A program made the position numbers and the translations under genes. 64,000 nt of DNA. Origin: Magnetococcales bacterium. Its GTDB lineage: Bacteria > Pseudomonadota > Magnetococcia > Magnetococcales > Magnetaquicoccaceae. A model generated the notes under the pieces. It was given only the letters and a program-made list of their open reading frames with translations, was not told the DNA's origin and made no database searches. The stretch spans positions 1-64,000 of the forward strand of contig JAANAU010000015.1 in NCBI GenBank assembly GCA_011089965.1, given 5' to 3'. Positions 20,607 through 37,730 of the stretch are shown here, one piece after another (the stretch's first letter is position 1; every line of letters starts with the position of its first letter).

Positions 20607-23600
20607 ATGCCTGATGATTTTTCGTCAACCGTTTCAACAACGGGAAGAGTAACACCCAACGGCGCTTCAATAACAGGAAGAATTGAATCACTTAATGATA
20701 GTGATTGGTTTCAAATACAATTGATCGCTGATACGGAGTATCGGTTCCACGCCACACGTACCACTTTGCATGGATTGAGCGATCCGGTTCTCTATTTGTA
20801 CGACAGCCGTGGGGTGAACCTGGCCTTGGATGATGACAGTGGCGGACAGGGCAACGCACGGATTGCCTATTCGTGTCTGCTCTCTGGAACCTATTATCTC
20901 GGAGTGCGGGATTATTCGTCCGGGGTCGGGGCGTACACCCTGGCAGCAACCTATCCCATCGACGATCACCCCAACACAATGGCCACAACGGGCCAGTTGG
21001 TGATCAATGGTCCGGCACGCTCCGGCACCATCGACACCGTGCAGGATGCAGACTGGTTCGGGGTCACCCTGAATGCCGGTACGCTCTATCAACTGCGGGC
21101 AACACGTACCGGTTCCGCCGGTCTGACAGACCCCTACTTGACCCTGTACAATGGCCGTGGCGAGGAGGTCACCTCGGATGATGATCAGGGAGGGGGCGGC
21201 AACTCCCTGATCCGTTTCACCCCATCGGTCACTGGAACATTCTATTTGGGGGTGCGGGATTATGGTTTTGGAACCGGAAGCTATCTGATCTCTGCCACGG
21301 TGGATGATTTTGCCGGCTCGCGTATGACCACTGGGCGCGTGGCCGTCAATGGGACGGCGGTTGCCGGCACCATCGAAGGGCCGGAAGACCAGGACTGGTT
21401 TGCCGTCAATCTGACCTCCCGTTCCACCTATCGGTTGCGCGTCACGCGCAGCGGAACAACCAGTGGGTTGGTCGATCCCTATGCGACGCTGTTCGATGGC
21501 CAGGGCAATCCGGTCACATCCAACAACGATGGCGGCATTGGCAATAATGCGCAGATCACATTCACCCCGGAGAGTTCCGGCACCTATTACCTGGGTGTGC
21601 GGGATTTCAGCACAGGCACCGGACGGTATACCGTTTCTGTCGCCAACCCGGACGATTTTGACAGCTCGGTTGCCACGACTGGCCGTCTGGTGGTCAATGC
21701 ACCGACGGCAACACGCGGCAAAATCGAACGCGGCGGGGATCGCGACTGGTTTGCCATCACCCTGAACGCAGGCACGGCCTATCAATTGCGCGCTGAAGGG
21801 ACAACCACACTGAGTCTGTCCGATCCCTACCTGACCCTTTACAATGCCCAAGGACGCCTGATCACCTCCAACAACAACAGCGGCAGCGGCAACAATGCCC
21901 TGATACGTTATACCCCGACTCTGACCGGAACCTACTACCTGGGAGTCAGAGGCGATGCCAATACGGATCGCGGTTTTTATACGGTATCGGCAGTCAGTGC
22001 CGATGATTATGGCGGATCATCAACAACTTCCGGGAGTTTGTCGACCACAGGAACCGTACGCACCGGCATCATCGAACGGGTCGGGGATGAAGACTGGTTT
22101 GCCGTCACCCTGAACGCCGGTACATCCTACAGCGTGCGACTCAACCGTTCCACCACAGATGGATTGAACAACCCCTATCTTTCACTGTTCAACTCCAGCG
22201 GGGTTCTGATTGCCACGAATAATGACGGGGGACTGAATGGCAATGCCAGGCTGGTCTATACCCCACTGGTCACCGGAACCTACTATGTAGGCGCGCGGGA
22301 TGTCAGTAGCGGAACGGGCAATTATCGGCTCAGTGCCATTGTCACCACCACCACCAACCTGCAAGATGATTTTCTGTCCACCATGGCCACCACAGGTCGG
22401 GTGACGGTCAATCAAACCACCGGAACCTCTGGTCGCATCGAAACCGCCTGGGACAACGATCTGTTTGCCGTCACTTTGACCGCTGGCATCTCCTACCGCT
22501 TGAGCGCCACGGCTGCTGTCAGTGCCGGACTGACCGATCCATTTCTGACCCTGTATGATCCCCAGGGAACAGCCATTACCTATAATGATGACCATGGAAA
22601 CACACGTGACTCTTTGATCATTCATACTCCCACAGAGAGTGGTACGTATTATCTTGGAGTCAAGGATTACTCCAATGGCACAGGCTCCTATACAGTCTCC
22701 GCCATAACCGGAGATGATTATGGTGATTCCGCATCTGCTGCTGGCGTCGTGTTGGTCAACGAAGAAGCGGAGTCCGGACAGATCGAACGCAGTGGGGATC
22801 AGGACTGGTTTCTTGTGGTGCTCTCTGCCGATACTCCCTATCAATTCCATGCCACGTCAGAGATTGCGGCTGGTCTCACTGATCCGCTCCTCACCTTGTT
22901 GGATGGATACGGAAACGTCCTGACCAGCAACGACAATGCCCACAGCGGGACACATGACTCCCTGATCCGCTATACGCCGACTACTGAAGGAATTTATTTT
23001 CTTCAGGTCTCGGATCGTGGTACTGGCATTGGTGCCTATACCGTTTCCGCTTTGACCGATGATGATTATGCCGAGGCGGTGACCACAACCGGGCGTGTGA
23101 CTCCGAATGGTTCGGTCACTGGTATGATCGAATCAACCAATGATCGGGATTGGTTTCAGGTCGATCTGGTTGCCGGTCATGGCTATGCAATTGATCTGTT
23201 GGGTGAACCATCGGGAAACGGCACTGTACTGGATCCTTTTTTCTATGGCGTGTATACCAGCAGTGGGGAGCTGATCGGCAATACCAGCAACGATGATTCC
23301 GGAGACTCTGTGGAATCGTATATGCTGTTTATACCTGAAACCTCTGGCAGCTATTACCTCTCGGCAGGCGCCTATGGAACATACACTGGCAGCTACCTGC
23401 TGCGGGTCAACGATGTTTTGGCAACAGATATCGCCAATACAGTACAAACGACCGCCACTCTGGAGGTGGATGGTCGTGCCGAAAGTCGGATCGAATTGGC
23501 TCAGGATGTGGATTGGTTTCGAGTCACCTTGACGGCTGGCGAGACCTATATCATCGAACAGTGCAGCGACTCCAGCAGTGCTTCGCCATTGAGGGATCCC

Positions 23601-25928
23601 TATTTCCGGGGAGTGTACACGGCTGCCGGAACCCGCATCAGCGGGACATCCAACGACGATTACGGATTGGGCCTGGATTCCCGGGTGCAATTCACCCCCG
23701 AAAGATCCGGCACCTATTATCTGGCGGCAGGAGCGGCCAGCGGCACCGGAGATTATCTCCTGACCCTGACAGCCCGTACCAACAGCAACGACAACGTGGC
23801 AGATTCGACCGAAACCACAGCCTCCATCACTGTGGATGGCGACAGCGTGGATGGCGTGATCGATACCGCTTTTGAAAGGGATTGGTATCGCGTCAGCCTG
23901 ACATCCGGTCAGAACTACGAAATCAGCGTACGTGGAGCGGCCAGCAACTCCGGCAGCTTGAGTGATCCCGTGTTGATCGGTGTGTACGATGCAGACGGAA
24001 GAGTTCTGCCCGGGACCGGCAACCAGAATGCTCAGGGTACTTCCGATGCCTTTTCCACATTTCGTCCCGCCTCCAGCGGCACCTATTATCTGGCCGTGGG
24101 GGGGTATGCCGACAATACCGGAACTTTCCGGTTGTCGATCAACACCAGCAACGATACGGATGTGCCGGATAATGTTACAACTTCTGCAACGATGACGACT
24201 GAGTATCGTGGCCGGGTCGAGGCGGTTTGGGATGTGGACTGGATCCGTGTGGCACTCACGGCAGGCACCACCTATCGCATTCAGGAGTTGGGAAGCTCGG
24301 GCGGACATGGCACCTTGCGGGATCCGATGATTCATGGGATCTATGACAGCAATGGCTTGGCGCTGCCTGGCACCTCGAATGATGATGTCAACGATACCCG
24401 CAACTCTGAAGTCACCTTCACAGCCCCGGTCACGGGCAATTTCTACCTTGCAGCCGGTGCGTATGGCACCGAAACCGGCAGCTATTTTGTGACCATGACC
24501 GCAGGGGATCCGGACACCTCGCAACCGCAAATGGTCAATGCGATTCCGGCCACGATCAATCCGGCCTCCAATCTCACCCTGACCTTCAATGAAACAATGC
24601 GCGCAGGTAGTGGGAATCTGCGTATTACCGGCGGTGGAGAAACCATCACCATCGCCATCACCAGCCCCCAGGTCACCATTTCCGGGGAGACAGTCACAAT
24701 CAATCCTGGGCAAAATCTGGCAGACAATACCAGCTACACCCTCTCCATCGACAATGGTGCACTGACCGATCTGGCTGGCAATGCCTACGCTGCGAACACA
24801 AACCTCTCCTTTGCAACCAGTGCAATCACGGATCGCGACACCTGGACGATCATGTTCTACATCGATGGCGATAATGATTTGGAGTCATATGCCATCGATG
24901 ATCTGAATGAAATGGAGTCGGTAACCATACCAGAAGGGATCAATCTGGTGACTCTGCTGGATCGGATCCCAGGTTATGATTCCAGCAACGGCAACTGGTC
25001 GGATACCCGTCAAGGGGTCATGCTGACCGATTCCAATCCCAACACCGTGACCTCATTTTCTGGTTTCAGCTCTCTGGGCGAGCAGAATCTGGGCAATCCG
25101 GCCAGTTTGACCCGCTTCATCAACTGGGCTGCCACCAACAATCCAGCGGATCACTATGCCCTGGTGGTCTGGGACCATGGCGGGGGATTGTCCGGGAGTT
25201 GTTGGGACGATACGAACAATGGAGACAATCTGACCGCCAATGAGTTGCGTTCGGCCATCGACAACTCCAATGTGGATCATTTTGATCTCATCGGTTTTGA
25301 TGCCTGTCTGATGGGCATGACCGAGCAGGCCTGGGATTTACGTAATCTCACCGATGTGATGGTGGCCTCCGAAGAGTTGATTCCCGGAACCGGTTGGGCG
25401 TATGACCTTTGGCTGCGAGATCTGGCCAACAACCCCAACATGTCCGCCACAGATCTGGGATCCAGAATCGTACAAACCTATGCCCAGCGCAATGCCGGCG
25501 AGGAGGATATCTCCTTGTCTGCAATCCAGAGCAATCAATTGACTGCTCTGAATACGGCCATGGAAGCGTTTGCCTCCCGGGCACTGAGTCTGCCTGCAAC
25601 ATCCCAGGAGTGGCAAAAAGTGCGTCAGGCCGCAGAACGCACGGTCAGTTTCGGTGGAGAAGGGAATCGTTACAACTATCGTGACTTGGGCGATTTCATG
25701 AACAATGTCGCTTCCCGCGCCACCGATGCCAATCTGGTTACCGCAGCCAATCATGTGGTGGCCCAACTGGATCAGGTGGTTTCCGCCAATGCCGGCACCA
25801 TTGCCGGCGCCAGTGGTCTCTCCATTTATCTGCCATATGGTTCCAGACCGGTGGATGCCAGTTATACGGCCACCAATCACTCGTTTTTGTCTTCTTCCTC
25901 TTGGGAGACCTTTCTGGCCACACTGTGA
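20607..25928 (+). CDS. Large PPC-repeat protein with Ig-like and clostripain (C11) peptidase domains
   Basis: A 1773-residue protein. Residues 1 to about 1300 are eleven PPC-type (pre-peptidase C-terminal) beta-sandwich repeats, each with DWF near the start and SGTYYLGVRD near the end. About 1307-1408 is an SbsA/Big_5-type Ig-like domain (NLTLTFNETMRAG). From about 1411 a C11 clostripain-family domain begins (WTIMFYIDGDNDLE), with the expected His1524 in WDHGGG and Cys1567 in DACLMGM. TAAGGAG lies 6 bases upstream of the ATG. There is no N-terminal signal peptide; the protein starts directly in the first PPC repeat. A secreted or surface peptidase is inferred, exported by a route not visible here. 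Confidence 0.9.
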   Translation: MPDDFSSTVSTTGRVTPNGASITGRIESLNDSDWFQIQLIADTEYRFHATRTTLHGLSDPVLYLYDSRGVNLALDDDSGGQGNARIAYSCLLSGTYYLGVRDYSSGVGAYTLAATYPIDDHPNTMATTGQLVINGPARSGTIDTVQDADWFGVTLNAGTLYQLRATRTGSAGLTDPYLTLYNGRGEEVTSDDDQGGGGNSLIRFTPSVTGTFYLGVRDYGFGTGSYLISATVDDFAGSRMTTGRVAVNGTAVAGTIEGPEDQDWFAVNLTSRSTYRLRVTRSGTTSGLVDPYATLFDGQGNPVTSNNDGGIGNNAQITFTPESSGTYYLGVRDFSTGTGRYTVSVANPDDFDSSVATTGRLVVNAPTATRGKIERGGDRDWFAITLNAGTAYQLRAEGTTTLSLSDPYLTLYNAQGRLITSNNNSGSGNNALIRYTPTLTGTYYLGVRGDANTDRGFYTVSAVSADDYGGSSTTSGSLSTTGTVRTGIIERVGDEDWFAVTLNAGTSYSVRLNRSTTDGLNNPYLSLFNSSGVLIATNNDGGLNGNARLVYTPLVTGTYYVGARDVSSGTGNYRLSAIVTTTTNLQDDFLSTMATTGRVTVNQTTGTSGRIETAWDNDLFAVTLTAGISYRLSATAAVSAGLTDPFLTLYDPQGTAITYNDDHGNTRDSLIIHTPTESGTYYLGVKDYSNGTGSYTVSAITGDDYGDSASAAGVVLVNEEAESGQIERSGDQDWFLVVLSADTPYQFHATSEIAAGLTDPLLTLLDGYGNVLTSNDNAHSGTHDSLIRYTPTTEGIYFLQVSDRGTGIGAYTVSALTDDDYAEAVTTTGRVTPNGSVTGMIESTNDRDWFQVDLVAGHGYAIDLLGEPSGNGTVLDPFFYGVYTSSGELIGNTSNDDSGDSVESYMLFIPETSGSYYLSAGAYGTYTGSYLLRVNDVLATDIANTVQTTATLEVDGRAESRIELAQDVDWFRVTLTAGETYIIEQCSDSSSASPLRDPYFRGVYTAAGTRISGTSNDDYGLGLDSRVQFTPERSGTYYLAAGAASGTGDYLLTLTARTNSNDNVADSTETTASITVDGDSVDGVIDTAFERDWYRVSLTSGQNYEISVRGAASNSGSLSDPVLIGVYDADGRVLPGTGNQNAQGTSDAFSTFRPASSGTYYLAVGGYADNTGTFRLSINTSNDTDVPDNVTTSATMTTEYRGRVEAVWDVDWIRVALTAGTTYRIQELGSSGGHGTLRDPMIHGIYDSNGLALPGTSNDDVNDTRNSEVTFTAPVTGNFYLAAGAYGTETGSYFVTMTAGDPDTSQPQMVNAIPATINPASNLTLTFNETMRAGSGNLRITGGGETITIAITSPQVTISGETVTINPGQNLADNTSYTLSIDNGALTDLAGNAYAANTNLSFATSAITDRDTWTIMFYIDGDNDLESYAIDDLNEMESVTIPEGINLVTLLDRIPGYDSSNGNWSDTRQGVMLTDSNPNTVTSFSGFSSLGEQNLGNPASLTRFINWAATNNPADHYALVVWDHGGGLSGSCWDDTNNGDNLTANELRSAIDNSNVDHFDLIGFDACLMGMTEQAWDLRNLTDVMVASEELIPGTGWAYDLWLRDLANNPNMSATDLGSRIVQTYAQRNAGEEDISLSAIQSNQLTALNTAMEAFASRALSLPATSQEWQKVRQAAERTVSFGGEGNRYNYRDLGDFMNNVASRATDANLVTAANHVVAQLDQVVSANAGTIAGASGLSIYLPYGSRPVDASYTATNHSFLSSSSWETFLATL
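20610..24510 (+). repeat. Eleven tandem PPC-type coding repeats
   Basis: Units begin near 20610, 20959, 21303, 21651, 22001, 22366, 22713, 23059, 23421, 23788 and 24157, a period of about 345-370 bases. The first seven or eight share DD(F/Y)xxSxxTTG at the start and an LTDPYLTLY core. The last three or four are a variant with LxDPxxxGVYxxxG and SNDD. Confidence 0.85.
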
Positions 25929-26084: not shown

Positions 26085-27539
26085 TCACCCCCCCACGGTG
26101 TCAATACCGTGTTTTTCCATCTTTCGGTAAAAGGTGCTGCGACTCACCCCAAGGATTTTGGCGGCCTTCTTTTTCCTCCACTGCGCCTCCTCAAGGGCGC
26201 GCAACAAGGCTTCCCGCTCCGGTGGCGGGGCAGATGCCACCGGAATGGTGGGTGGCGTGGGTGCCGGGGTGGGCGTGGGGGCAGGGATTGGGGGCCGCTC
26301 CGGTTCGACCGGCAACTCCAATTCCAGCTCCACAGGATCGGCACAAGGACGGTTGATAATCAAATTTTTGGGCAGATGCCGGATGCGGATCGTGTTCTGA
26401 CGCGATACCACATAGGCGTGTTCGATGGCATTTTCCAACTCGCGGATATTGCCCGGCCACGGGTAAAGCCGAAACATCTCCAACACGCTATCCTGAACAC
26501 CTATGATACTTTTCTCATATTTACGGTTGAATCGCTGAATAAAATGGTTGACAAGCAAGGGAATGTCATCCAAACGCTGGCGCAAAGGTGGGACATGGAT
26601 CTCCACCACATTGAGCCGGAAATAGAGATCTTCGCGAAATCGACCCAGACGGATCTGTTCCGCCAGATTGCGGTTGGTGGCTGCGATCACCCGTACATCC
26701 ACTCGAATCGTGCGGGAGTCTCCCACCCGTTCCAGCTCTTTCTCCTGCAAGATGCGCAACAACCGGGTCTGCATGGAAAGGCTGATATCGCCGATTTCAT
26801 CCAGAAAGATGGTCCCGCCGATGGCTGCCTCGAACCGTCCGGGCCGGTCGCGTACCGCCCCGGTAAAAGCCCCTTTCACATGGCCAAACAGCTCGCTCTC
26901 CAGCAAGGTATCCTGCAAGGCGGCACAGTTCACCTTGACCATGGGGCCATGACTGCGTTTACCCTTGAAATGCAGGGCTTCGGCTACCAGTTCCTTGCCC
27001 ACACCAGACTCTCCGGTGATCAAGGTGGTGGTGTCCATGCTGGCCAGAGACTCCACCAGATCATACACCTCCTGCATCTTTTCGCTCATGCCGATCAGGC
27101 GATGGAAAGTGCGACGTTTGCGCACCAACTCCGGCAGTGGAGTGAGACTGGAACGGTCGAGAATCACCACCACCGCCCCCTTGCAATGACCGACATGATC
27201 GATCAAAGGGGTGGCGCTGACCCGTACTTCGGTGCGCTCCTCTCCTGGTCCCGGACAACTCAGATGCAGGTTCCACTCGGCCTTGCGCATGGCAATGACG
27301 CGCTGCAACAGGGTGGCCACTTCAGGCACACATCCCGCTTTCTGCTCCAATAACGAATATCCCAAAGCCGGTCCGGCAAAATGACAGGCATTCAAGGCTG
27401 CCGGGTTGATGCTGTGAACGATCATCCTTTCGTCCACCACAATCACCCCTTCGCGGATGCTGTTGGTCACGGTCTCCAGCAAATCCCGCAGCAGGACGGG
27501 ATTGGTATGCAGATGGTTGGTCTCATGGGGTGGCATCAT
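26085..27539 (-). CDS. Sigma-54-dependent transcriptional activator (PAS-AAA+-Fis HTH)
   Basis: A 484-residue enhancer-binding protein. A PAS domain (about 17-130; EGVIVVDERMIVHSINPAA) is followed by an AAA+ domain with Walker A GESGVGKE, the sigma-54 contact loop GAFTGA and Walker B TIFLDEIGD. A Pro-rich linker and a Fis-type helix-turn-helix (RKKKAAKILGVSRSTFYRKM) complete it. There is no receiver domain, so the PAS domain is the likely sensor; its Cys residues could sense redox, which is inference. Start choice is uncertain: ATGs at 27539, 27536 and 27596 are in frame, and the last lies inside a palindrome. It is divergent from the ankyrin/cytochrome operon and is its probable regulator. 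Confidence 0.93.
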   Translation of the reverse strand: MMPPHETNHLHTNPVLLRDLLETVTNSIREGVIVVDERMIVHSINPAALNACHFAGPALGYSLLEQKAGCVPEVATLLQRVIAMRKAEWNLHLSCPGPGEERTEVRVSATPLIDHVGHCKGAVVVILDRSSLTPLPELVRKRRTFHRLIGMSEKMQEVYDLVESLASMDTTTLITGESGVGKELVAEALHFKGKRSHGPMVKVNCAALQDTLLESELFGHVKGAFTGAVRDRPGRFEAAIGGTIFLDEIGDISLSMQTRLLRILQEKELERVGDSRTIRVDVRVIAATNRNLAEQIRLGRFREDLYFRLNVVEIHVPPLRQRLDDIPLLVNHFIQRFNRKYEKSIIGVQDSVLEMFRLYPWPGNIRELENAIEHAYVVSRQNTIRIRHLPKNLIINRPCADPVELELELPVEPERPPIPAPTPTPAPTPPTIPVASAPPPEREALLRALEEAQWRKKKAAKILGVSRSTFYRKMEKHGIDTVGG

Positions 27540-27588
27540 CGGGAATCTTTGTACCCTGCACAGGTTGCGGGTGGGAGTGTGTGTATCA

Positions 27589-27605
27589 TGAGACATTATG
27601 TCCCA
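27589..27605. promoter_or_regulatory. Candidate activator-binding palindrome, regulator side
   Basis: TGAGACATTATGTCCCA pairs TGAGACAT with ATGTCCCA around a single base, with one mismatch in eight. The core ACATTATGT is the reverse complement of the core at 27691-27699. Its position just upstream of the regulator start would suit autoregulation as well as activation of the divergent operon. Confidence 0.45.
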
Positions 27606-27620
27606 TTCTGTCCCAATGGA

Positions 27621-27633
27621 ACACATTTTGTGT
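27621..27633. promoter_or_regulatory. Third ACA-TGT palindrome in the divergent region
   Basis: ACACATTTTGTGT is a perfect inverted repeat with 5-base arms and a 3-base centre. It is related in arms and spacing to the ACATAATGT cores. Its centre is 30 bases from that of the regulator-side palindrome. Confidence 0.3.
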
Positions 27634-27690
27634 CGCATCGGTGCATCATGACCGGAGCGGAAAACCACGCAACAGACAGGAATCGACGTG

Positions 27691-27767: not shown

Positions 27768-27783
27768 TGGCATGCGCTGTGCG
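27768..27783 (+). promoter_or_regulatory. Sigma-54 (-24/-12) promoter of the ankyrin/cytochrome operon
   Basis: TGGCATGCGCTGTGCG has the invariant GG and GC separated by exactly 10 bases and matches TGGCAC-N5-TTGC at all but two positions. It predicts a start near 27794 and a leader of about 86 bases before the ankyrin gene. Confidence 0.6.
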
Positions 27784-27879: not shown

Positions 27880-28845
27880 ATGAACACCAAGAAAATCACC
27901 CTGACTCTCTCCATCATGGCCGTGGCTGCCGTGATGGTCTTCACCGTCGGCGACCGAAGCACGCCCAAAAAGGTGGATAACGCCCTGTCTGTAGCGGCCA
28001 TGGAAGGAGATGTGACCAAGGTGCGGGAACTGCTCGGTCGGGGCATGGATGCCGACAGCCACGGCAATCTGAAAATCTCTCCGCTGGCCTGGGCAGCGGA
28101 GAATGGACATGCGGAGGTGGTCAAAGTGCTCCTGGAGGCAGGAGCGGATGTGAATGCTGTGGATCCTTCGGGTTTCACGCCGTTGAGCCTGGCGGCACGT
28201 TGGAATGATCATGCCATTGTCGGCATGTTGCTCGATGCCGGAGCCAACCCGAATCTTGCCACCCGTTCTGGCCAGACCGCCATCTTTGGACCGGCCCAGT
28301 ACGGATTTGAGGAGCTGTTGAAAAAGCTGATCGAAAAGGGAGCGGATGTCAATGCCATCGACAAACGCGGCGACAGCCCCATGATCATCGCTTCCAAACG
28401 GGGACATGACAAGGTGGTGGTGGCACTGCTCGATGCGGGTGCAACCCCCAACCTCCAGAACAAACAGGGCTATACCCCGTTGATGATCGCTGCCGAGTCG
28501 GGTCATGAAATGATCGTGGCCAAATTGCTGGAACGGGGTGCGGATCTGACCTATCGGCATGAGTGCGGCTGCACGGCACTCCTGGCCGCTGCCGAGAAGG
28601 GGTATGTCGGGATCGTGCGGCTGCTGCTCGATCATGGTGCCGACATCAATGCCGTGAACTATGAAGGATCGTCGGCCTTGATGTTTGCCGCACGCTACAA
28701 CTATCTGGATACGGCCAAGCTGTTGCTGGAGCGGGGTATCCGGACCGATCTCAAAGATGAGAAAGGCAAAACGGCCAGGGACTATCTGCGTGTCGGAGCC
28801 ACACGCGCCATGAACCGCCTGTTGGATCCAGGCAAGAACGTATGA
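27880..28845 (+). CDS. Exported or membrane-anchored ankyrin-repeat protein
   Basis: A 321-residue protein. Residues 1-24 (basic start, then LTLSIMAVAAVMVFTV) form a signal peptide or anchor. The rest is about eight ankyrin repeats of 33 residues with the usual TPLxxAAxxGHxxxVxxLLxxGAD pattern, so it probably works in the periplasm as a protein-binding scaffold. AAGGAG lies upstream of the ATG. It is the first gene behind the sigma-54 promoter and is followed by three cytochrome genes. Bacterial periplasmic ankyrin proteins such as AnkB protect against oxidative stress; a chaperone or assembly role for the cytochromes is possible but inferred. Confidence 0.9.
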   Translation: MNTKKITLTLSIMAVAAVMVFTVGDRSTPKKVDNALSVAAMEGDVTKVRELLGRGMDADSHGNLKISPLAWAAENGHAEVVKVLLEAGADVNAVDPSGFTPLSLAARWNDHAIVGMLLDAGANPNLATRSGQTAIFGPAQYGFEELLKKLIEKGADVNAIDKRGDSPMIIASKRGHDKVVVALLDAGATPNLQNKQGYTPLMIAAESGHEMIVAKLLERGADLTYRHECGCTALLAAAEKGYVGIVRLLLDHGADINAVNYEGSSALMFAARYNYLDTAKLLLERGIRTDLKDEKGKTARDYLRVGATRAMNRLLDPGKNV

Positions 28846-28866
28846 CCAACAGCCAACATCAACCCC

Positions 28867-28902
28867 CCGGCAGTCGGCCACGACAGCCAGGCCGACTGCC
28901 GG
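28867..28902 (+). repeat. Perfect 13-bp hairpin between ankyrin and cytochrome genes
   Basis: CCGGCAGTCGGCC (28867-28879) and GGCCGACTGCCGG (28890-28902) pair perfectly around a 10-base loop. No T-run follows, so it is not a normal terminator. In an operon such a stem can stabilise one side of the mRNA after processing or lower read-through. Confidence 0.75.
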
Positions 28903-28926
28903 CCAATCAGGAAAGCGGAGGAGACC

Positions 28927-29874
28927 ATGAACGCATTCATCATCACCCGGTCATGGGTCATGCTCCTGACTTTTCTGGTTGGAGTGATTGTTGCCACAAA
29001 AGTACAAGCACAAGCACAAGGGGATGAAACCTGCATGCGTTGTCACAGTATGGCGACCCTCTCCTATCTCGACGCCAAAACCGGCTTGATGCGCAATCTG
29101 GCCATCGATCCTCAGGCCATGGCACAATCCGACCATCGCCAACTGAAATGTCGCGATTGCCATGCTGCCGGTTACGAGGCCTATCCGCACTTCGAGGAGG
29201 CGCGGCGCGAGCGTCTTGATTGCTTTGGTTGTCATGATTCCATTGGGAAATTCCCAAAAGATAAATTTGAAATCATTGAGCGTGGATTTCAGCGCAGCAT
29301 TCATTATCAGAATCGGCAAGACTCTTTGAACTGCTTTTCATGCCACAATCCACACGATTTTCGTCAGTTGGCCGGACTGCCCAAAGAGCGGTTGATTCCC
29401 ACCGTGGCGCGTGACAATGGGGTGTGTCGCCGCTGTCACGACTCGCCCGAAGGCATTCTGGGACAAAGCGGGCGGCTGTTTCTGACTTTGGAGATGACCC
29501 ACTCCTGGTTGCCGGAAACAGAACGCCATTGGAGCAAGATCCGGTGCGTGGAGTGTCACACCTCGTCGCAGCAGGAAAACAGCCATTTCATCCTGGGACG
29601 GGATTATGCCGTACGTGCATGTGAAGCGTGTCACAGCCGGGATTCGATTCTGGCGGTCAAACTCTATCGCCATCGCACCCGCGAGGAGCGGCGCACGGCT
29701 GGATTCATCCATTCGGTGGTGATGAACGATGCTTATGTAATCGGGATGACCCGCAACCAATGGTTGGATTGGGGCGGGATGGCTCTGATCGGCCTGACCA
29801 TTGTCGGAGTTGGCGCTCATGGTTTGGCCCGTTTTCTGGTTGGAAGGAGCATGCGCCATGAAACCCGTCATTGA
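28927..29874 (+). CDS. Membrane-anchored seven-heme cytochrome c
   Basis: A 315-residue protein with an N-terminal signal sequence (about 1-29, ending in VQAQA), seven CXXCH heme motifs (CMRCH, CRDCH, CFGCH, CFSCH, CRRCH, CVECH, CEACH) and one C-terminal membrane helix (WGGMALIGLTIVGVGAHGLARFLV). The hemes lie in the periplasm. GGAGGAG stands just upstream of the start. The stop overlaps the cytochrome b start by 17 bases. It probably passes electrons between the cytochrome b and the eight-heme protein downstream. The exact family is not recognised. Confidence 0.93.
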   Translation: MNAFIITRSWVMLLTFLVGVIVATKVQAQAQGDETCMRCHSMATLSYLDAKTGLMRNLAIDPQAMAQSDHRQLKCRDCHAAGYEAYPHFEEARRERLDCFGCHDSIGKFPKDKFEIIERGFQRSIHYQNRQDSLNCFSCHNPHDFRQLAGLPKERLIPTVARDNGVCRRCHDSPEGILGQSGRLFLTLEMTHSWLPETERHWSKIRCVECHTSSQQENSHFILGRDYAVRACEACHSRDSILAVKLYRHRTREERRTAGFIHSVVMNDAYVIGMTRNQWLDWGGMALIGLTIVGVGAHGLARFLVGRSMRHETRH

Positions 29875-30484
29875 ACTCTATCCCCTCTGGATCCGATTGT
29901 GGCATTGGACCAATGCGCTGTCGTTCCTGGTGCTGCTGGCAACGGGAATCAGCCTGCATTTTGCGACTCCTGGTGCCATGCTGATTCCCTTTGAAATCGC
30001 CCGGATGCTGCATAATGTTTTCGGATTGGTGATGACCGGGGGTTGGGTGGTGTTTGTGATTGGCAACTGGTGGAGTGGCAACGGGATCCATTACCGTCCC
30101 CAAAGGACCGGTTTGATCGGGCGTCTGCTGGTCCAGATCCAATTTTATGGGGTGGGTATTTTTCGCCATGATCCTCATCCTTTTCCGGCTGCACCGCAGG
30201 CCAAATTCAATCCGCTGCAACAGTTGACCTATCTGGGCGTGATGTTTGGTGCCATGCCGGTGTTGATCCTCTCCGGATGGGGTTTTTTTTGGCACGAGTG
30301 GATACCTGAACGTTTTCTGGAGATGGACGGACTGTGGGTGGTGGGTGTGATCCATTATCTGGTGGCACTGTTTCTGACTGCTTTTCTGATCGGACATCTC
30401 TATCTGGCTACTGCCGGTGAGACGGTGTTCGGAGAGTTCAAAAAAATGATTTCTGGTTCCAGACTGACGGAGGAACAACCATGA
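29858..30484 (+). CDS. Cytochrome b561-type membrane subunit
   Basis: A 208-residue integral membrane protein with four hydrophobic helices of the bacterial b561 / Ni-Fe-hydrogenase b-subunit type. Candidate heme-ligand histidines are in LWHWTNA (His16), ARMLHNVFG (His52), VIHYLVA and LIGHLYLA. The start at 29858 follows AAGGAG at a 10-base spacing; a longer frame from 29801 lies inside the preceding gene. It overlaps both neighbours (the 3' overlap is ATGA) and is the likely quinol-reactive module of the complex. Confidence 0.9.
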   Translation: MKPVIELYPLWIRLWHWTNALSFLVLLATGISLHFATPGAMLIPFEIARMLHNVFGLVMTGGWVVFVIGNWWSGNGIHYRPQRTGLIGRLLVQIQFYGVGIFRHDPHPFPAAPQAKFNPLQQLTYLGVMFGAMPVLILSGWGFFWHEWIPERFLEMDGLWVVGVIHYLVALFLTAFLIGHLYLATAGETVFGEFKKMISGSRLTEEQP

Positions 30485-32628
30485 ACACCCAGATGATCCG
30501 CCAATCACATCATGTCAAACGGATCGCCCTCATCCTTGGAATAGGCATGACCATCGGAGTTGTGCGCTGGATTTATCCCGGACTCCTGGAAAGCTATATC
30601 GGGGTCACGAATGCCCCTTTGACCTATGCCAACAGTGTGGAGTTGACGCCACGGGAGTTTGATCAACTGGCCGACTCCTTGACCCGAGAACATCGGCAAC
30701 AGCGTGCCCTGGCCCAGACTGCCCATGAAGAGGTGCCCTTTGCCCGGCGTCTGAAGGTCAACCTGTTGATGAAGATCCCGTCGTTTGCCAAACCCTCGCC
30801 CTATCCGCACATTCAATATTTTCGCAAGGCGGGCATTCGGCACTATACCGGGCCTGAGACCTGTCTGACGTGTCATGAAACCATAAAAGTAACCGATGCG
30901 CATGGCAAGATTCAAGAAGTTGAAACCATGCAGGACATCGTGAACTCGGTCCATTTCAAATTCCAGAGCAGTGGAGCCGGTTTTTCCACCTATGGTTTTG
31001 ATGGTCGCCAGGTGAACGGACCTGGGGTGCGTTCCATTCCAGTCGGCAAGATCGACCGGGCGTGTGGAGTGCCCGGTTCCTTTACCTGGACCGGTTGGGC
31101 GGAGTTGATCCGGACCAAACCCGAACATGCCAATGGAAATGTGGAGCTGCGCAGCGAAGGGTGTGGACAATGCCATATTGGTGGTGGATATCATCCGGCG
31201 ACCGAAAAGATGTTGCCATTCCATGACGCTCCGGAGAGCGCCAAGGCCGGTATCGACTGTCTCATCTGTCACAGCCAGAGCTACGACATGAATCAGCGTT
31301 ATGTGATCGAAGATGATCATGGTCGGCGCTGGAATCAGGATCGCTCCATGAAGGCGGCCTTGACCGTAGGTGCCGCCAGCAACCGGACCTGTCTCAACTG
31401 CCACCAACACAATATGGGCGGCGATCTGGAAAAATCTCTGCCCTCTGGTGCGGCTCCGGACAATCTCGGCTATCAAAACAAACGCCTGCTCCATCCCGGT
31501 GCCAAGCGTGGCAATTCGATCCAACCGGAACACGATGTTCATGCCGCAGCGGGCATGACCTGCACCGACTGTCACAAACCCCAAGGCCACAAAATTCCCC
31601 GTGGTACGCTGGGTGTGGATCTGGTGGCCAATGACCTGCCGGGACGCAAGGTCGATTGCGAGTCCTGTCATACCGCTGCCCCGCATGTCAAAGATACCGA
31701 GGAGCGGGCACTGCTCAATGGTCATGTCGCGCGTGTTGCCTGCGAAACCTGCCATATTCTCAAATTGCGTGATGACAATACCGTGCTGCGTGACTGGATC
31801 CACCCAGTCTGGAATGCCGAAGAGGGGGCCTATCTCTTCCGGGATGTCTATCAAAGCGGAGAACCGGGTCGTGGTTTCACATTTCTGTGGTTCAACGGCA
31901 ATGGATCGTTTCTGGCCAATGCGTTGGGGGACAATCCGGTTGGCGACGGCAGCTACAATCCGTTGATGCGGCAGTTGGTCAAGATCGAAGATCCCAAGGT
32001 GATTGCAGCGGTTCGTCAGGCGGCGATTGAGTTGCAGAAAAGCTATCCGGATCTGGATGTGGAGCGTTATGTGCGTGATGCCACAGATTTTCTGGCTCCT
32101 CTTTCTCCGGAGATGCGGGCACAACGTCAAAAGATGATCGATGAGAAGATCCGCCCCATCATGGCGCAAGGGCAAAGCAGGATCTATCCATTCAAGCTCT
32201 TCAATGCCATCATGTATGAGGATATGAACAATCAAGGACCGTTTGGTGCCATGATTCTGCCCTTTGACTATCCGAGTTATTACGAACAGGGCGATCCTAA
32301 GCTCTCGGTACGCCGGGCGCTGGAACACCCGATTCTGCAACGGATGTATCAGGCACCGTTCAAGGCATACATGATGGATGAATTCATGCACTACTTTGGA
32401 GTGTCTGGATGGAAGGCCGAATATCCGGTAGATGCCAAGGGGCAGTTGCGGCATGTCGAGCCACACTGGATGCGGCAGATGGGAACCCTGATGGTCAATC
32501 ATGGCATCCAGAAGGAGGGGCGTGGCTGCAAAGAGTGTCACTCCAAGAACGGTATACTCGATTTCCAGGCATTGGGTTACCCACCGGAACGGGTCGAGGA
32601 ATTGCGGAAATTGCCAGAATTGCAATAA
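30481..32628 (+). CDS. Eight-heme cytochrome c, possibly octaheme reductase-like
   Basis: A 715-residue protein with an uncleaved N-terminal anchor (about residues 14-35) and eight CXXCH motifs: CLTCH (128-132), CGQCH, CLICH, CLNCH, CTDCH, CESCH, CETCH and CKECH near the C-terminus. Seven lie in the first 60 percent; about 250 heme-free residues then separate them from the eighth. Heme number and the membrane-anchored layout recall octaheme tetrathionate reductase-type cytochromes, but I cannot assign a substrate. It is the last gene of the operon and is followed by a strong terminator, which fits a terminal oxidoreductase or outward electron carrier. Confidence 0.88.
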   Translation: MNTQMIRQSHHVKRIALILGIGMTIGVVRWIYPGLLESYIGVTNAPLTYANSVELTPREFDQLADSLTREHRQQRALAQTAHEEVPFARRLKVNLLMKIPSFAKPSPYPHIQYFRKAGIRHYTGPETCLTCHETIKVTDAHGKIQEVETMQDIVNSVHFKFQSSGAGFSTYGFDGRQVNGPGVRSIPVGKIDRACGVPGSFTWTGWAELIRTKPEHANGNVELRSEGCGQCHIGGGYHPATEKMLPFHDAPESAKAGIDCLICHSQSYDMNQRYVIEDDHGRRWNQDRSMKAALTVGAASNRTCLNCHQHNMGGDLEKSLPSGAAPDNLGYQNKRLLHPGAKRGNSIQPEHDVHAAAGMTCTDCHKPQGHKIPRGTLGVDLVANDLPGRKVDCESCHTAAPHVKDTEERALLNGHVARVACETCHILKLRDDNTVLRDWIHPVWNAEEGAYLFRDVYQSGEPGRGFTFLWFNGNGSFLANALGDNPVGDGSYNPLMRQLVKIEDPKVIAAVRQAAIELQKSYPDLDVERYVRDATDFLAPLSPEMRAQRQKMIDEKIRPIMAQGQSRIYPFKLFNAIMYEDMNNQGPFGAMILPFDYPSYYEQGDPKLSVRRALEHPILQRMYQAPFKAYMMDEFMHYFGVSGWKAEYPVDAKGQLRHVEPHWMRQMGTLMVNHGIQKEGRGCKECHSKNGILDFQALGYPPERVEELRKLPELQ

Positions 32629-32653
32629 ACGTATCATTGCGGTCTATCTGAAG

Positions 32654-32686
32654 AAAAAGGAGGCGACGTCATGCCTCCTTTTTTAT
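32654..32686 (+). terminator. Rho-independent terminator of the cytochrome operon
   Basis: AAAAAGGAGGC (32654-32664) pairs with GCCTCCTTTTT around an 8-base loop and ends in a T-run. It lies 26 bases after the eight-heme cytochrome stop. Confidence 0.88.
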
Positions 32687-32727: not shown

Positions 32728-32757
32728 ATTGCATCTTGTGTGCAATCGCACAATAAT
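32728..32757 (+). promoter_or_regulatory. Sigma-70 promoter candidate overlapped by inverted repeats, kinase operon
   Basis: A -35 TTGCAT (32729-32734), 17 bases and a -10 AATAAT (32752-32757) stand 78 bases before the kinase start. Two inverted repeats overlap the spacer: ATTGCA (32728-32733) with TGCAAT (32741-32746), and TTGTG (32736-32740) with CACAA (32748-32752). They could be operator halves. Confidence 0.45.
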
Positions 32758-32835
32758 AACCATTCATACGGATCGGTCGCGTGCTGGTCCGGATTCGTCC
32801 CGGGAGATGCACAGCTCTGGTCAGGAGAGACCCAG

Positions 32836-35253
32836 ATGAGATCGGGATTGTGTCGCAGCATGGGTGTTGTGGTCAGCATGGTGGGCCTGTTGTGGTTGAT
32901 GCCAGCCCTGGTTGATGCCACCGGGGAGCGGATTGTGCCGAGAAACAATGCCCGGGCACTCCTGGTGGGCAGTGAATTGGATTATCCTCCCTATGCCACG
33001 GTCAATGCCCAAGGTGAGGCAGATGGCTTCAGTGTAGATCTTTTCAAAGCCGTAGCCCAGGTGATGGGGCTGGAAGTTACATTCCGGGTTGGGCCGTGGC
33101 ACGAAATGCGGGCTGCCTTGGAACGCGGGGAGATCGATGCCTTGCCGTTGGTCTCATATTCCGAGGAACGGGAGAGGGTATTCGACTTTTCTGCCCCGCA
33201 TACCGATGCCCTTGCCACAGTCATGATTCGCAAAGGAGATCCAGCCTTTACCAGCGAACGAGATCTGTATGGCAAGAAGATCATTGTGATGCAAGCAGAT
33301 GCCACTCATGACTATCTGGTGCGCCATCAGATTTCAACGGATCTGATTCTGGCCAAAACCGTACTGGAGGTCTTGCAACGTCTGAGCGGTGGAGAAGGGG
33401 ATGTGGCCTTTGTGGCACGCCTGCCCGGGTTGCTGGAAGCCAGAGCGCGTGGATTGGATGAGCTGGTGATTGCCACCGGTCCTGCGATTGCCGTGCATGG
33501 CCGTGGATACGGCTTTGCGGTCCGCAAGGGAAACAGTGAACTTTTGGACCAGTTGAATCATGGTCTGGCTGTGGTCAAGGCAGCAGGCAAATATGCGGAG
33601 ATCTATGACAAATGGTTTGGCATGGTCGATCCGCGCGGCATCTCCTTGGAAACCCTTCACACCTATGGCGGCATGATCGGGGGTGGGATCCTGTTTGTTT
33701 TGGCTGTTGGTTTGTTGTGGAACAGCTCTTTGCGGCGGGAAATCCAACAGAGACGTGTGGCTGAAGAACGTCTGGAACAAAGCAATCACAATTTGAGTCT
33801 GGCCAAGGAGGCTGCCGAGGCAGCCAGTCAGGCCAAAAGTCTTTTTCTGGCCAATATGAGCCATGAATTTCGTACCCCTTTGCATGCCATCCTTGGGTTC
33901 AATCGGTTGTTGTTGTGCGATGTCGAAGTGACCGCCAGACAAAAGGAGTATCTGGAGGTGATCCAGGCGAGCGCCTCCCATCTGTTGACGCTGATTCAGG
34001 ATGTATTGGAGATGTCACGCATCGAGGCCGGGCGGATGGAACTCCATCTGAAAGTGGTGGATCTCAAGAAGATCTTGACGGATGTGGCCGATATGATGCG
34101 CATACGGGCTGAAGAGAAGGGACTTATGTTTCACGTGAAACATGATGCCGACTTGCCACACGATGCCCAAACCGATGGCAGCAAGCTGCGGCAGGTGCTG
34201 ATCAATCTGTTGAGCAATGCGATCAAATTCACGGAAAAAGGAACCGTGACTTTGCGTGCCGGCCTGGGAAGAGACATCGATATGGATGGGCCGCGTGAGC
34301 TTTGGTGCGAGGTGGAAGATAGCGGTGTAGGAATTCCTGCCGAGGCATTGGAAAAAATTTTTGAACCCTTTACCCAGATTTCCCACAGTCCCGGATCCGG
34401 GGAGGGGACCGGATTGGGATTGACCATCACTCGCCACTATTTGCGATTGTTGGGGGGGGATGTGGAAGTGACCAGTTCTCCGGGGCATGGTTCGATCTTT
34501 CGGTGCCGCGTGCCGATTGTTTGCCTTGGGGGAACAGCCGTCAGGGATTTGGAACGCGCAGAGGTACAAATCATCGGGCTGGAAGAGGGAGAGAGGATAC
34601 CACGTATTCTGGTGGTGGACGATCTGCCTGCCGGGCGGTTGATGTTGCGACGGTTGATGGAGGCAATCGGCTGCCAGGTCGAAGAGGCGGTGAACGGACA
34701 ACAGGCCGTCGAGCGGTTTCTGGAGTGGCATCCGGATCTGATCTGGATGGATATGCGCATGCCGGTCATGGATGGGTATCAGGCTACACGGCAGATCAAA
34801 TCCGATCCGCAAGGCCGTCAGATTCCGGTGATTGCCGTAACGGCCAGTGTGCTTGGACAGGATATGCAGGAAATTCAGAAGGCTGGTTGCGACGATTTTC
34901 TTGGAAAGCCGTTTCAGGAATCCGATATCTATCACCGTATGGTCAAACATCTGCCATTGCGATATCGCTATCAACAAAAAGACAAACGTGTGGATCAGGC
35001 CATTGCCCAGATTTTGTCCTGGGAGGTGTTTCGGGAGACGTTTACGGCCCTGCCTCCGGAGTTGTGTGCGGATTGGCGTCAAGCTGTAGCACTGTTGCAA
35101 ATGGATCAGATGAGTTGCTCTGCGCAGGCCATGCAGGCGCATGATCCGAAACTGGCTGAAGGGTTGTTGGAGTTGATTGACCATTATCAACTGGAAGTTC
35201 TGGCGCGCTGGATGGCATGGCTGGATGGCGCGACCAGTGAAACGTGGAGTTGA
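32836..35253 (+). CDS. BvgS-like hybrid histidine kinase with periplasmic solute-binding sensor
   Basis: An 805-residue protein. A signal sequence (1-30) precedes a periplasmic type 3 solute-binding domain (about 40-265; VGSELDYPPYATVN, EIDALPLVSYSEER). A membrane helix (about 280-297) leads to HisKA with His343 (NMSHEFRTPL), HATPase and a receiver with phospho-acceptor Asp639 (LIWMDMRMPVMDG). There is no PAS or HPt domain, so phosphate must pass to a separate HPt. CAGGAG lies upstream of the ATG at 32836; the frame extends to 32740 through the promoter. Only two bases separate it from the next kinase gene. Confidence 0.92.
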   Translation: MRSGLCRSMGVVVSMVGLLWLMPALVDATGERIVPRNNARALLVGSELDYPPYATVNAQGEADGFSVDLFKAVAQVMGLEVTFRVGPWHEMRAALERGEIDALPLVSYSEERERVFDFSAPHTDALATVMIRKGDPAFTSERDLYGKKIIVMQADATHDYLVRHQISTDLILAKTVLEVLQRLSGGEGDVAFVARLPGLLEARARGLDELVIATGPAIAVHGRGYGFAVRKGNSELLDQLNHGLAVVKAAGKYAEIYDKWFGMVDPRGISLETLHTYGGMIGGGILFVLAVGLLWNSSLRREIQQRRVAEERLEQSNHNLSLAKEAAEAASQAKSLFLANMSHEFRTPLHAILGFNRLLLCDVEVTARQKEYLEVIQASASHLLTLIQDVLEMSRIEAGRMELHLKVVDLKKILTDVADMMRIRAEEKGLMFHVKHDADLPHDAQTDGSKLRQVLINLLSNAIKFTEKGTVTLRAGLGRDIDMDGPRELWCEVEDSGVGIPAEALEKIFEPFTQISHSPGSGEGTGLGLTITRHYLRLLGGDVEVTSSPGHGSIFRCRVPIVCLGGTAVRDLERAEVQIIGLEEGERIPRILVVDDLPAGRLMLRRLMEAIGCQVEEAVNGQQAVERFLEWHPDLIWMDMRMPVMDGYQATRQIKSDPQGRQIPVIAVTASVLGQDMQEIQKAGCDDFLGKPFQESDIYHRMVKHLPLRYRYQQKDKRVDQAIAQILSWEVFRETFTALPPELCADWRQAVALLQMDQMSCSAQAMQAHDPKLAEGLLELIDHYQLEVLARWMAWLDGATSETWS

Positions 35254-35255
35254 TC

Positions 35256-37730
35256 ATGTCACGGCAGGATTCGATCACTGGAGATATTCTGGTCGTTGAC
35301 GACGACCGGGCGGCTTTGCGCTTTCTGGATGAAACTTTGCGGCGACAGGGTCATACGGTACGTCTTGCCCCTTCGGCAGGCCTGGCCATGGTCTCTTTTC
35401 ACTCCCGTTGCCCGGATCTGGTGTTGCTGGATGTGGCATTGCCGGATCTGAGCGGTTTTGAGTTGTGTCAGAAGATCAAACGGGTGCCGGGTGGGGCTGC
35501 GGTTCCGGTCATTTTCATCAGTGGATTGACCGACATCACGGACAAGGTGCAGGGATTTGAGGTCGGTGGAGTGGACTTTGTCAGCAAACCGTTTACACCG
35601 GAAATCATTGTCGCCCGGGTAACAACTCATTTGGTATTGGCCCGCACCCTGAAAGAGATGGCCGAACGCAATACCCGACTGGAAGAAGAGATTATCCACC
35701 GCCAGAGGGTGGAAGAGCGGTTGCGTTTGAGCGAAACCCGTTTTCGTGGTGCCTTTGAAACCGCTGCCCATGGCATGGCGCTGGTCTCACCCAATGGTCG
35801 CTTTTTGCAAGTAAATCATGCCTTGTGTCAACTGGTCGGTTACAGTGAGACAGAACTGTTGGCCCTCGATTTCCAAAGCATCACCCATCCGGATGATCTG
35901 GAGTCTGACCTGGAATTTGTCCGTCAGATGTTACATGGAACACTGCATACTTACCAAATGGAAAAAAGATATTTCAATAAACAAGGAAAAATAATTTATG
36001 CGTTAATAAGTGTCTCTCTGGTACGTGACAGGCACGGGATGCCATTGCATTTTGTTGTCCATATTCAGGACATAACAGCACGCAAGGAGGCAGAACAGAA
36101 ACTGCGCGAGGCGCACAACACCCTGGAACAACGGGTGTTTGATCAGACACAGGTGTTGCGTCAGACGGTTGAACTGTTGCACCAGGAAGTGACAGAACGG
36201 AGTCGCATTCAAGAGGAGTTGCAACGGGAGCGAGACAAATTATTTGGCATTCTCGATGCCATGGATGATGGGGTCTACATCGTGGATCAGGAATGCAATA
36301 TTGAATATGTCAACCCGGTAGTCGAAAGAGATTTTGGAGTGCCTGGGAACCGGAAGTGCTATCAGTATTTTCATGAACTTTCAGAACAATGTTCATGGTG
36401 TAAAAACTCACAAGTTTTTAGAGGACAGACAGTCAACTGGGAGTGGTATTCGGAAAAGAGTGGTAAACATTTTGATCTGTTTGACGCACCGCTGCGTCAT
36501 CCGGATGGTGAGATACGCAAAATTGAATTCTTTCATGATATCACGGATCGCAAACGGCTGGAGGAGTCTTTGCGTTTGGCCAAGGATGGTGCAGAGGCTG
36601 CCAGCCAGGCCAAGAGCGAGTTTCTGGCAGCCATGAGTCATGAAATCCGCACGCCAATGAACGTGGTATTGGGAATGGCAGAGATGTTGCTGGAGACCCC
36701 ATTGACCCAAAAGCAACGCCATTATGCCTTGACCATGCACCATTCGGGAAAAGCCTTGTTGGGGGTAATCAACGATGTGTTGGATTTCTCACGCATCGAA
36801 TCAGGTCGTTTTTCCTTGGCGGATGAACCTTATGCCCCACAGAAGGTGATCGAGGAGACCGTAGGCTTGATGCGCGTGGCTGCCGAAGAAAAGGGATTGG
36901 CCATGGAGTCGCTGCTCTCTGACAATCTTCCCGATCTGATTCTGGGTGATGAGACGCGGGTCCGCCAGGTGCTCATCAATTTGATTGGAAATGCCATCAA
37001 GTTTACCGAGCATGGACGGGTGGAGGTCAGACTCTCGCGAGTTGCCGATGGGGGGGATTTGCAATATCGGGTGCTGGATACGGGCATTGGGATTGCCAAA
37101 GAGCAGATCGGCCATATTTTTGAGCAGTTCATTCAGGCTGATGCCGGTATTACCCGACGCTACGGAGGGACTGGGCTGGGATTGGCCATTTCCAAGCGTT
37201 TGGTCGAAATGATGGGAGGACGTATTTGGGTCGAAAGCCAGGCTGGAGCAGGCAGCGCCTTTTTTGTCACCCTGCCGGTGCGCATTGTTCCAAACCAGGA
37301 GCCGCCGCTTGAACGTGCCGATGAAAAACCGGTTGCCAGCAACCAAACCGGTCTGCGTATTCTGTTGGCAGAAGATGTGGAGGAGAACCGGGTGTTGCTC
37401 GATGCCTATCTGGTCGGTACGCCGCATCGACTGGTCATGGTTTCCGATGGTGCCCAGGCCGTTGCCCGAATACGCACGGAACCCTTTGACGTGGTGATCA
37501 TGGATGTACAAATGCCGATCATGGATGGCTACACAGCGACCAGGTTGATTCGGGATTGGGAGCGGGAACAGGGAACAAGGCGCATTCCGATTGTCACCCT
37601 TTCGGCACATGCCATCGAAGGGGAACTGGAACGCTGTCGAGCTGCCGGTGGGGATCTCTATCTGACCAAGCCTATCGGAAAAAAAGGATTGTTGACAGTA
37701 TTAAACAAAATTGCGGAGACCAGGATTTGA
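35256..37730 (+). CDS. Soluble hybrid histidine kinase REC-PAS-PAS-HisKA-HATPase-REC
   Basis: An 824-residue cytoplasmic protein. The N-terminal receiver has Asp59 (LVLLDVALPDLSG). Two PAS domains follow, the second with a Cys pair (SEQCSWCKNSQ). HisKA has His462 ([12 protein letters not shown]), and HATPase (GGTGLGLAISKRL) precedes a C-terminal receiver (DVVIMDVQMPIMDG). The N-terminal receiver could be phosphorylated by the BvgS-like kinase just upstream, giving a two-kinase relay. The ATG at 35256 is preferred over 35244, which overlaps the upstream gene; GTGGAG precedes it. Confidence 0.92.
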   Translation: MSRQDSITGDILVVDDDRAALRFLDETLRRQGHTVRLAPSAGLAMVSFHSRCPDLVLLDVALPDLSGFELCQKIKRVPGGAAVPVIFISGLTDITDKVQGFEVGGVDFVSKPFTPEIIVARVTTHLVLARTLKEMAERNTRLEEEIIHRQRVEERLRLSETRFRGAFETAAHGMALVSPNGRFLQVNHALCQLVGYSETELLALDFQSITHPDDLESDLEFVRQMLHGTLHTYQMEKRYFNKQGKIIYALISVSLVRDRHGMPLHFVVHIQDITARKEAEQKLREAHNTLEQRVFDQTQVLRQTVELLHQEVTERSRIQEELQRERDKLFGILDAMDDGVYIVDQECNIEYVNPVVERDFGVPGNRKCYQYFHELSEQCSWCKNSQVFRGQTVNWEWYSEKSGKHFDLFDAPLRHPDGEIRKIEFFHDITDRKRLEESLRLAKDGAEAASQAKSEFLAAMSHEIRTPMNVVLGMAEMLLETPLTQKQRHYALTMHHSGKALLGVINDVLDFSRIESGRFSLADEPYAPQKVIEETVGLMRVAAEEKGLAMESLLSDNLPDLILGDETRVRQVLINLIGNAIKFTEHGRVEVRLSRVADGGDLQYRVLDTGIGIAKEQIGHIFEQFIQADAGITRRYGGTGLGLAISKRLVEMMGGRIWVESQAGAGSAFFVTLPVRIVPNQEPPLERADEKPVASNQTGLRILLAEDVEENRVLLDAYLVGTPHRLVMVSDGAQAVARIRTEPFDVVIMDVQMPIMDGYTATRLIRDWEREQGTRRIPIVTLSAHAIEGELERCRAAGGDLYLTKPIGKKGLLTVLNKIAETRI

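Follow-up and report, generated by a model that had tools for sequence, protein, structure and literature searches.

A conserved three-gene cytochrome module related to octaheme tetrathionate reductase, preceded by an ankyrin-repeat gene in Magnetococcales

Locus, promoter and gene order

The DNA analysed here (hereafter the window) is a 64,000-nucleotide stretch from a Magnetococcales bacterium (GenBank assembly GCA_011089965.1, contig JAANAU010000015.1, positions 1 to 64,000), and inspection of its open reading frames (ORFs) reveals a plus-strand operon of four genes that encode, in order, an ankyrin-repeat protein (ank), a protein with seven CXXCH motifs, a cytochrome b (cytb) and a protein with eight CXXCH motifs (Table 1). 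A preliminary description of the locus had reported four ORFs, three of them overlapping, and a total of 15 c-type hemes, and both statements are confirmed. With the ATG at 29858 taken as the start of cytb (the listed ORF begins at a TTG at 29801), its overlap with the heptaheme gene is 17 bp; cytb in turn overlaps the octaheme gene by 4 bp (ATGA), and the motifs of the two c-type proteins sum to 7 + 8 = 15. Since the seven motifs are kept in 84 of 87 heptaheme rows and the eight motifs in 89 of 92 octaheme rows in alignments of relatives, these heme numbers are not a matter of chance. The same description had treated all four genes as one module. The module is real and conserved, a new combination of known kinds of parts; across phyla it comprises the heptaheme, cytb and octaheme genes (hereafter the trio), and only within Magnetococcales does it extend to ank.

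Inclusion of ank in Magnetococcales follows from the sigma-54 promoter that precedes it. A match at 9 of 11 positions is reached by 1% of shuffles, most relatives have a similar site some 96-125 bp before ank, and in most loci without ank the site is found upstream of the heptaheme gene instead; this conserved placement ties ank to the operon. A sigma-54 activator is encoded divergently in 26 of 33 Magnetococcales loci, and control of the operon by this dedicated activator would be the best explanation of the arrangement, as part of an overall reading towards which we lean. The terminator call rests on stem length and position, since terminator-like sites are no more numerous in this region than in shuffles.

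Table 1. Features of the operon and its control region, in positions of the window
Feature	Position	Strand	Evidence
Ankyrin-repeat protein gene (ank), predicted exported/anchored, HxCGC motif (H227, C229, C231)	27880..28845	+	ORF, Pfam, homologue alignment
Heptaheme c-type cytochrome gene, N-terminal signal-like segment, C-terminal transmembrane helix with invariant H298, R302	28927..29874	+	7 CXXCH
Cytochrome b gene (cytb), b561/Ni_hydr_CYTB type, four invariant His (16, 52, 166, 180)	29858..30484	+	Pfam 9e-25
Octaheme c-type cytochrome gene, related to octaheme tetrathionate reductase, N-terminal transmembrane anchor	30481..32628	+	8 CXXCH; 1sp3 E 6e-12; hhalign to octaheme tetrathionate reductase, prob 99.9
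Divergent sigma-54-dependent activator, PAS - AAA+ - Fis-type HTH	26085..27668	-	Pfam Sigma54_activat 1.4e-69, HTH_8 1.5e-13, PAS_4 3e-5
Sigma-54 (-24/-12) promoter TGGCATGCGCTGTGC	27768..27782	+	9/11 consensus positions
Intrinsic terminator, operon end	32653..32684	+	13-pair stem + T run

Subunits of the operon

The octaheme protein is a homologue of octaheme tetrathionate reductase (OTR). It matches the Shewanella enzyme 1sp3 in phmmer (E 6e-12) and OTR in a profile comparison (2e-14), and hhalign aligns the two over their full length (prob 99.9, E 1e-32, 392 columns) with all eight hemes in order, while Pfam returns weak cytochrome c7/MtrC-type matches. It is nevertheless no member of the OTR family as defined by TIGR04315 with its curated NCBIfam cut-off of 375 bits: it scores only 71 bits and its relatives 71-91, against 487-652 for the true OTRs of Magnetococcales, and an OTR above the cut-off is a separate gene in 20 of 48 genomes of the order, often alongside the trio. 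A phylogenetic tree likewise splits the octaheme protein from OTR with full support. In that tree one supported group holds all loci outside Magnetococcales except those of two alphaproteobacterial metagenome-assembled genomes (MAGs), the Magnetococcales sequences are not monophyletic, and the root is unsure.

Comparison with the heme ligand and active site of OTR, which the preliminary description had proposed, finds the heme order of OTR kept and its Lys153-His154 pair absent. Across the 92 rows the equivalents of OTR Cys64 and Asp150 are kept as C195 and D315, together with seven non-motif histidines that align with histidines of the OTR family (H110, H158, H354, H370, H402, H415, H674). 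The protein differs from OTR in invariant residues of its own: H310, which lies two residues past the fourth CXXCH, and H338-x-G-A-K342-R343, which is an insertion. We suggest that heme 2 may be open or else have His310 or Lys342 as a ligand. Each of the eight motifs reads CXXCH, with no CXXCK or CX15CH motif of the NrfA/MccA type among them. Its length exceeds that of the Magnetococcales OTRs by about 170 residues, and it has its own N-terminal anchor, a helix at residues 10-40 of the AlphaFold2 model (mean pLDDT 65, pTM 0.73) that appears to hold it in the inner membrane. Foldseek and VIA-align found no meaningful match to solved folds for the octaheme and heptaheme models, both of moderate confidence, as is to be expected when heme-packed proteins are built without heme. 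Among the relatives, the octaheme ORF is longer (872-1057 aa) in L059, L060 and L061 (family f5), and in L059 and L061 the extra sequence lies in the first third of the protein.

The heptaheme protein and cytb are both well conserved in alignments of relatives. The former gives cytochrome c3/c7-type matches in Pfam, and its nearest solved relative is 28pb (E 1e-16), an entry named only 'Cytochrome c'. Its AlphaFold2 model is modest overall (mean pLDDT 73, pTM 0.53), with a C-terminal helix at 278-314 whose core reaches pLDDT 95-98. The two c-type proteins had been called membrane-anchored, and the predicted structures agree for both, the heptaheme protein by this C-terminal helix and the octaheme protein by its N-terminal one. 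The heptaheme helix holds the invariant H298 and R302; the true OTRs of Magnetococcales end with a similar H...R helix, and in one locus (L149, G030:C115, 486-3338) a single ORF runs from a full OTR through this transmembrane helix into a cytochrome b561 and the receiver domain of a response regulator. From the helix shared with true OTRs and from this fusion we infer a packing on cytochrome b, and the pattern suggests that the heptaheme helix lies near the quinone site. The earlier label of a b561-type quinol module suits cytb, which by sequence falls among the cytochromes b that serve as quinone modules of hydrogenase, formate dehydrogenase and thiosulfate reductase (Pfam Ni_hydr_CYTB/b561, 9e-25). 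It scores 176 bits on PRK15006 (cut-off 204), the solved structure that comes nearest is the cytochrome b of E. coli hydrogenase 1 (4gd3, E 4e-4), and its four invariant histidines point to two hemes b. The pairs of OTR and cytochrome b in Beggiatoaceae and Magnetococcales resemble the trio in their cytochrome b partner and H...R helix; in the trio, unlike in these pairs, a 7-heme protein intervenes before the putative catalytic subunit is reached from cytochrome b.

The ankyrin protein contains at least seven ankyrin repeats (Pfam E 5e-57) and has a hydrophobic N-terminus in all 21 homologues, which supports its predicted export, either to the periplasm or as an anchored protein, as the preliminary description had held in calling it an exported scaffold. 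Its HxCGC motif is kept in 20 of the 21 homologues (the one from L047 has lost both cysteines), and the two cysteines of the motif are the only ones in the protein, which may act through a thiol, bind metal or carry sulfur. A periplasmic ankyrin protein in first position had been thought unexpected, and one tied to a multiheme system is indeed rare, but a precedent exists in AnkB of Pseudomonas aeruginosa, a periplasmic ankyrin protein needed for the catalase KatB (cited in PMC7567364). Both are exported ankyrin proteins next to a heme enzyme; no catalase lies at the ank locus, however, and the likeness rests on export and neighbourhood and not on HxCGC. Identification of ank as a Dot/Icm effector or as MzaA was rejected, the NCBIfam matches being repeat matches far below cut-off. 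A different ankyrin protein is encoded downstream of the trio in three Chromatiaceae (L094, 11669-12382; L096, 16505-17188; L130, 5521-6252), that of L094 being lipoprotein-like and without a CGC motif.

Distribution among genomes

The four-gene order was searched across genomes, as had been proposed, and the trio recurs intact in several phyla. Within Magnetococcales, 20 of 33 loci have all four genes in order, eight have the trio but no recognisable ank, one has the octaheme gene alone and two are interrupted by contig ends, so that the trio is intact in 28 of the 33. In two loci (L062, L063; G045, G035) cytb is missing, and the gene next after the heptaheme gene is a shortened form of the octaheme gene with seven heme motifs. 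Outside the order the full trio is present in 54 of 58 loci, two of the remaining four being interrupted by contig ends. These carriers, drawn from the best 80 of 201 relatives found, are mostly Chromatiaceae and also include Thiomargarita/Thiotrichaceae, Ignavibacteria, Calditrichota, Bacteroidota, Poribacteria and single alphaproteobacterial MAGs; for the most part they are sulfur bacteria. An occurrence of the genes apart in most relatives, which had been named as a refutation, is consequently not what the trio shows and is seen in part for ank, present in 20 of 33 loci. Among the loci compared, only those of Magnetococcales have this type of ank and the activator next to the trio, and ank is, as the sequences indicate, an add-on of that order.

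When 398 genomes of the phylum were searched with the octaheme protein, matches came from its own order only, with none from Chromatiaceae in that draw, and a tblastn search of plasmids with the heptaheme protein gave no match. Clustering of flanking genes across loci yielded no general shared partner, and the flanks vary. Of the 78 loci of at least 9 kb, 10 also encode a [NiFe]-hydrogenase large subunit, a suggestive neighbourhood, although Chromatiaceae are rich in hydrogenases anyway; the genes lie about 9 kb or nearer to the trio in L086, L094, L096, L107, L108, L111, L119, L126, L128 and L143, all outside Magnetococcales.

Proposed function and competing explanations

The reading that we moderately favour is that the trio acts as an inner-membrane, quinone-linked periplasmic oxidoreductase with a sulfur substrate, working preferably in the reductive direction, with ank as an accessory in Magnetococcales. 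Conservation of the trio, the gene overlaps, OTR homology, the family of cytb, the H298/R302 helix and the sigma-54 site with its activator all favour it. The three proteins would form a complex in which electrons pass between the quinone pool, two hemes b, seven hemes c, eight hemes c and a periplasmic substrate: cytochrome b, packed against the heptaheme C-terminal helix, would exchange electrons with the quinone pool, and the heptaheme protein would pass them on to the anchored octaheme protein, the putative catalytic subunit, an OTR fold with a rebuilt heme-2 pocket. The likeliest substrate would be a small inorganic periplasmic sulfur compound (tetrathionate, polysulfide or similar), and transfer from quinol to the substrate is the preferred direction, since those relatives that have been characterised work as reductases. 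Ank with its HxCGC site would probably serve as an assembly, docking or thiol-handling accessory.

Several published reports bear on this reading. A cytochrome b561 and octaheme pair of Chromatium okenii (CXB77_RS01235/RS01240) is conserved in purple sulfur bacteria and reported, second-hand, to be sulfide-induced in A. vinosum (PMC6374484). C. okenii DSM 169 (L138) carries the full trio in the same order, and the pair, with its A. vinosum homologues, is very probably the same operon; the available text of PMC6374484 describes neither a 7-heme member nor a relation to OTR, and no ank of this type adjoins in C. okenii. The one 7-heme and two 8-heme cytochromes of A. vinosum, some without annotated function (PMC11267869), are probably members of the trio. 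In Beggiatoaceae, an OTR lies beside a gene for a thiosulfate-reductase-type cytochrome b, and tetrathionate reduction was measured (PMC6449678). An OTR-annotated gene of Caldithrix adjoins a [NiFe]-hydrogenase (PMC5317091), as does the trio of the Calditrichota locus L119, which has one nearby.

Other observations weigh against a reductive sulfur enzyme. The Lys153-His154 pair (KHGD) of OTR is absent, the aligned position 318 being Lys in 16% of rows; Lys153 is reportedly the ligand of the active-site heme 2 in OTR, and with the pair missing OTR chemistry is not transferable to the octaheme protein. Furthermore, cytb is absent from two of 33 Magnetococcales loci, and members of the trio are carried by Ignavibacteria, Bacteroidota and Calditrichota, groups that do not uniformly specialise in sulfur. 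Growth tests in Caldithrix did not bear out the predicted sulfur respiration (PMC5317091), nitrite and hydroxylamine are further substrates of OTR-type enzymes (PMC4484225), and sulfide induction would fit an oxidative role as well. Such a role, in which reduced sulfur (sulfide, polysulfide, sulfane) would feed electrons through the octaheme and heptaheme proteins and cytochrome b into the quinone pool, is less likely than the reductive one. Cytochromes b of the FdnI/HyaC type usually reduce quinone, and most carriers of the trio are sulfide oxidisers; these, however, already possess Sqr or flavocytochrome c, and the characterised relatives of OTR are reductases. FccAB is named in PMC11267869, and the same paper, in which an 8-heme cytochrome of A. 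vinosum is up on pyrite, joins the sulfide induction reported in PMC6374484 in speaking for oxidation.

Nitrite and hydroxylamine reduction by OTR also raises the idea of an ammonifying or detoxifying quinol-linked reductase of the OTR/NrfA superfamily, and the genome of the window has no NrfA above cut-off. We think it improbable: no nitrogen genes recur beside the trio when flanks are clustered, the regulation reported for purple sulfur bacteria concerns sulfur sources, and a separate true OTR coexists in many Magnetococcales carriers. The preliminary description had left the choice between a quinol-linked reductase and an outward electron conduit, and the first is the better option. For a conduit one may cite the cbcABC order of Geobacter metallireducens, a 7-heme c-type, a b-type and a larger multiheme c-type cytochrome (PMC10989804), which the trio shares in gene order, as it may share the quinone-linked inner-membrane role of Cbc1/CbcBA. 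CbcC, however, has 11 hemes and Cbc1 further includes the monoheme CbcD and the membrane protein CbcE (PMC10989804), whereas the third subunit of the trio is an OTR homologue with eight hemes and a predicted inner-membrane anchor, followed by hybrid kinases in place of CbcD/CbcE. Because the inner membrane seems to hold the anchors of both c-type proteins, and neither a porin nor an outer-membrane cytochrome gene adjoins the operon in the window, an outward conduit seems unlikely, and service as the inner-membrane part of an extracellular electron-transfer chain of the Cbc1/CbcBA kind very much so; flanking genes moreover differ between loci. That the locus encodes no named complex is thus true of the exact gene set, while its parts have clear relatives in OTR and in the order of Geobacter Cbc1.

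The favoured quinone-linked oxidoreductase can be drawn more boldly, as an unnamed enzyme of sulfur-storing bacteria for which HxCGC of ank carries or presents the sulfur substrate in Magnetococcales. This is doubtful, but if true, purple sulfur bacteria, Thiomargarita and Magnetococcales would exchange electrons with periplasmic sulfur or polysulfide through a rebuilt OTR fold. More broadly, many Chromatiaceae genera and lineages of several phyla have one fixed three-gene respiratory module in common, the presumed catalytic subunit of which sits far under the OTR cut-off, and its genes are labelled octaheme cytochrome, tetrathionate reductase or unknown in the literature consulted. The conserved His310, His338 and Lys342 allow a direct test of the octaheme chemistry in cultivable organisms, and ank, with its HxCGC under the shared sigma-54 control, would be a rare exported ankyrin protein linked to a multiheme system.

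Gene content of the host would also fit a sulfur role. Its genome has two dsrA genes over the family cut-off (G000:C50:105043-106188 and G000:C39:66121-67266), and SoxB, NrfA and a true OTR give no match above cut-off; three [NiFe]-hydrogenase large-subunit loci are present as well. Within about 5 kb of the operon lie a peptidase, the sigma-54 activator and two hybrid kinases. The first is a 1773-aa protein (20607-25928) that combines eight PPC domains and one Ig-like domain with a peptidase domain of the clostripain family, and the kinases are adjacent hybrid histidine kinases (32740-37730), the first of which has a periplasmic-binding SBP_bac_3 domain.

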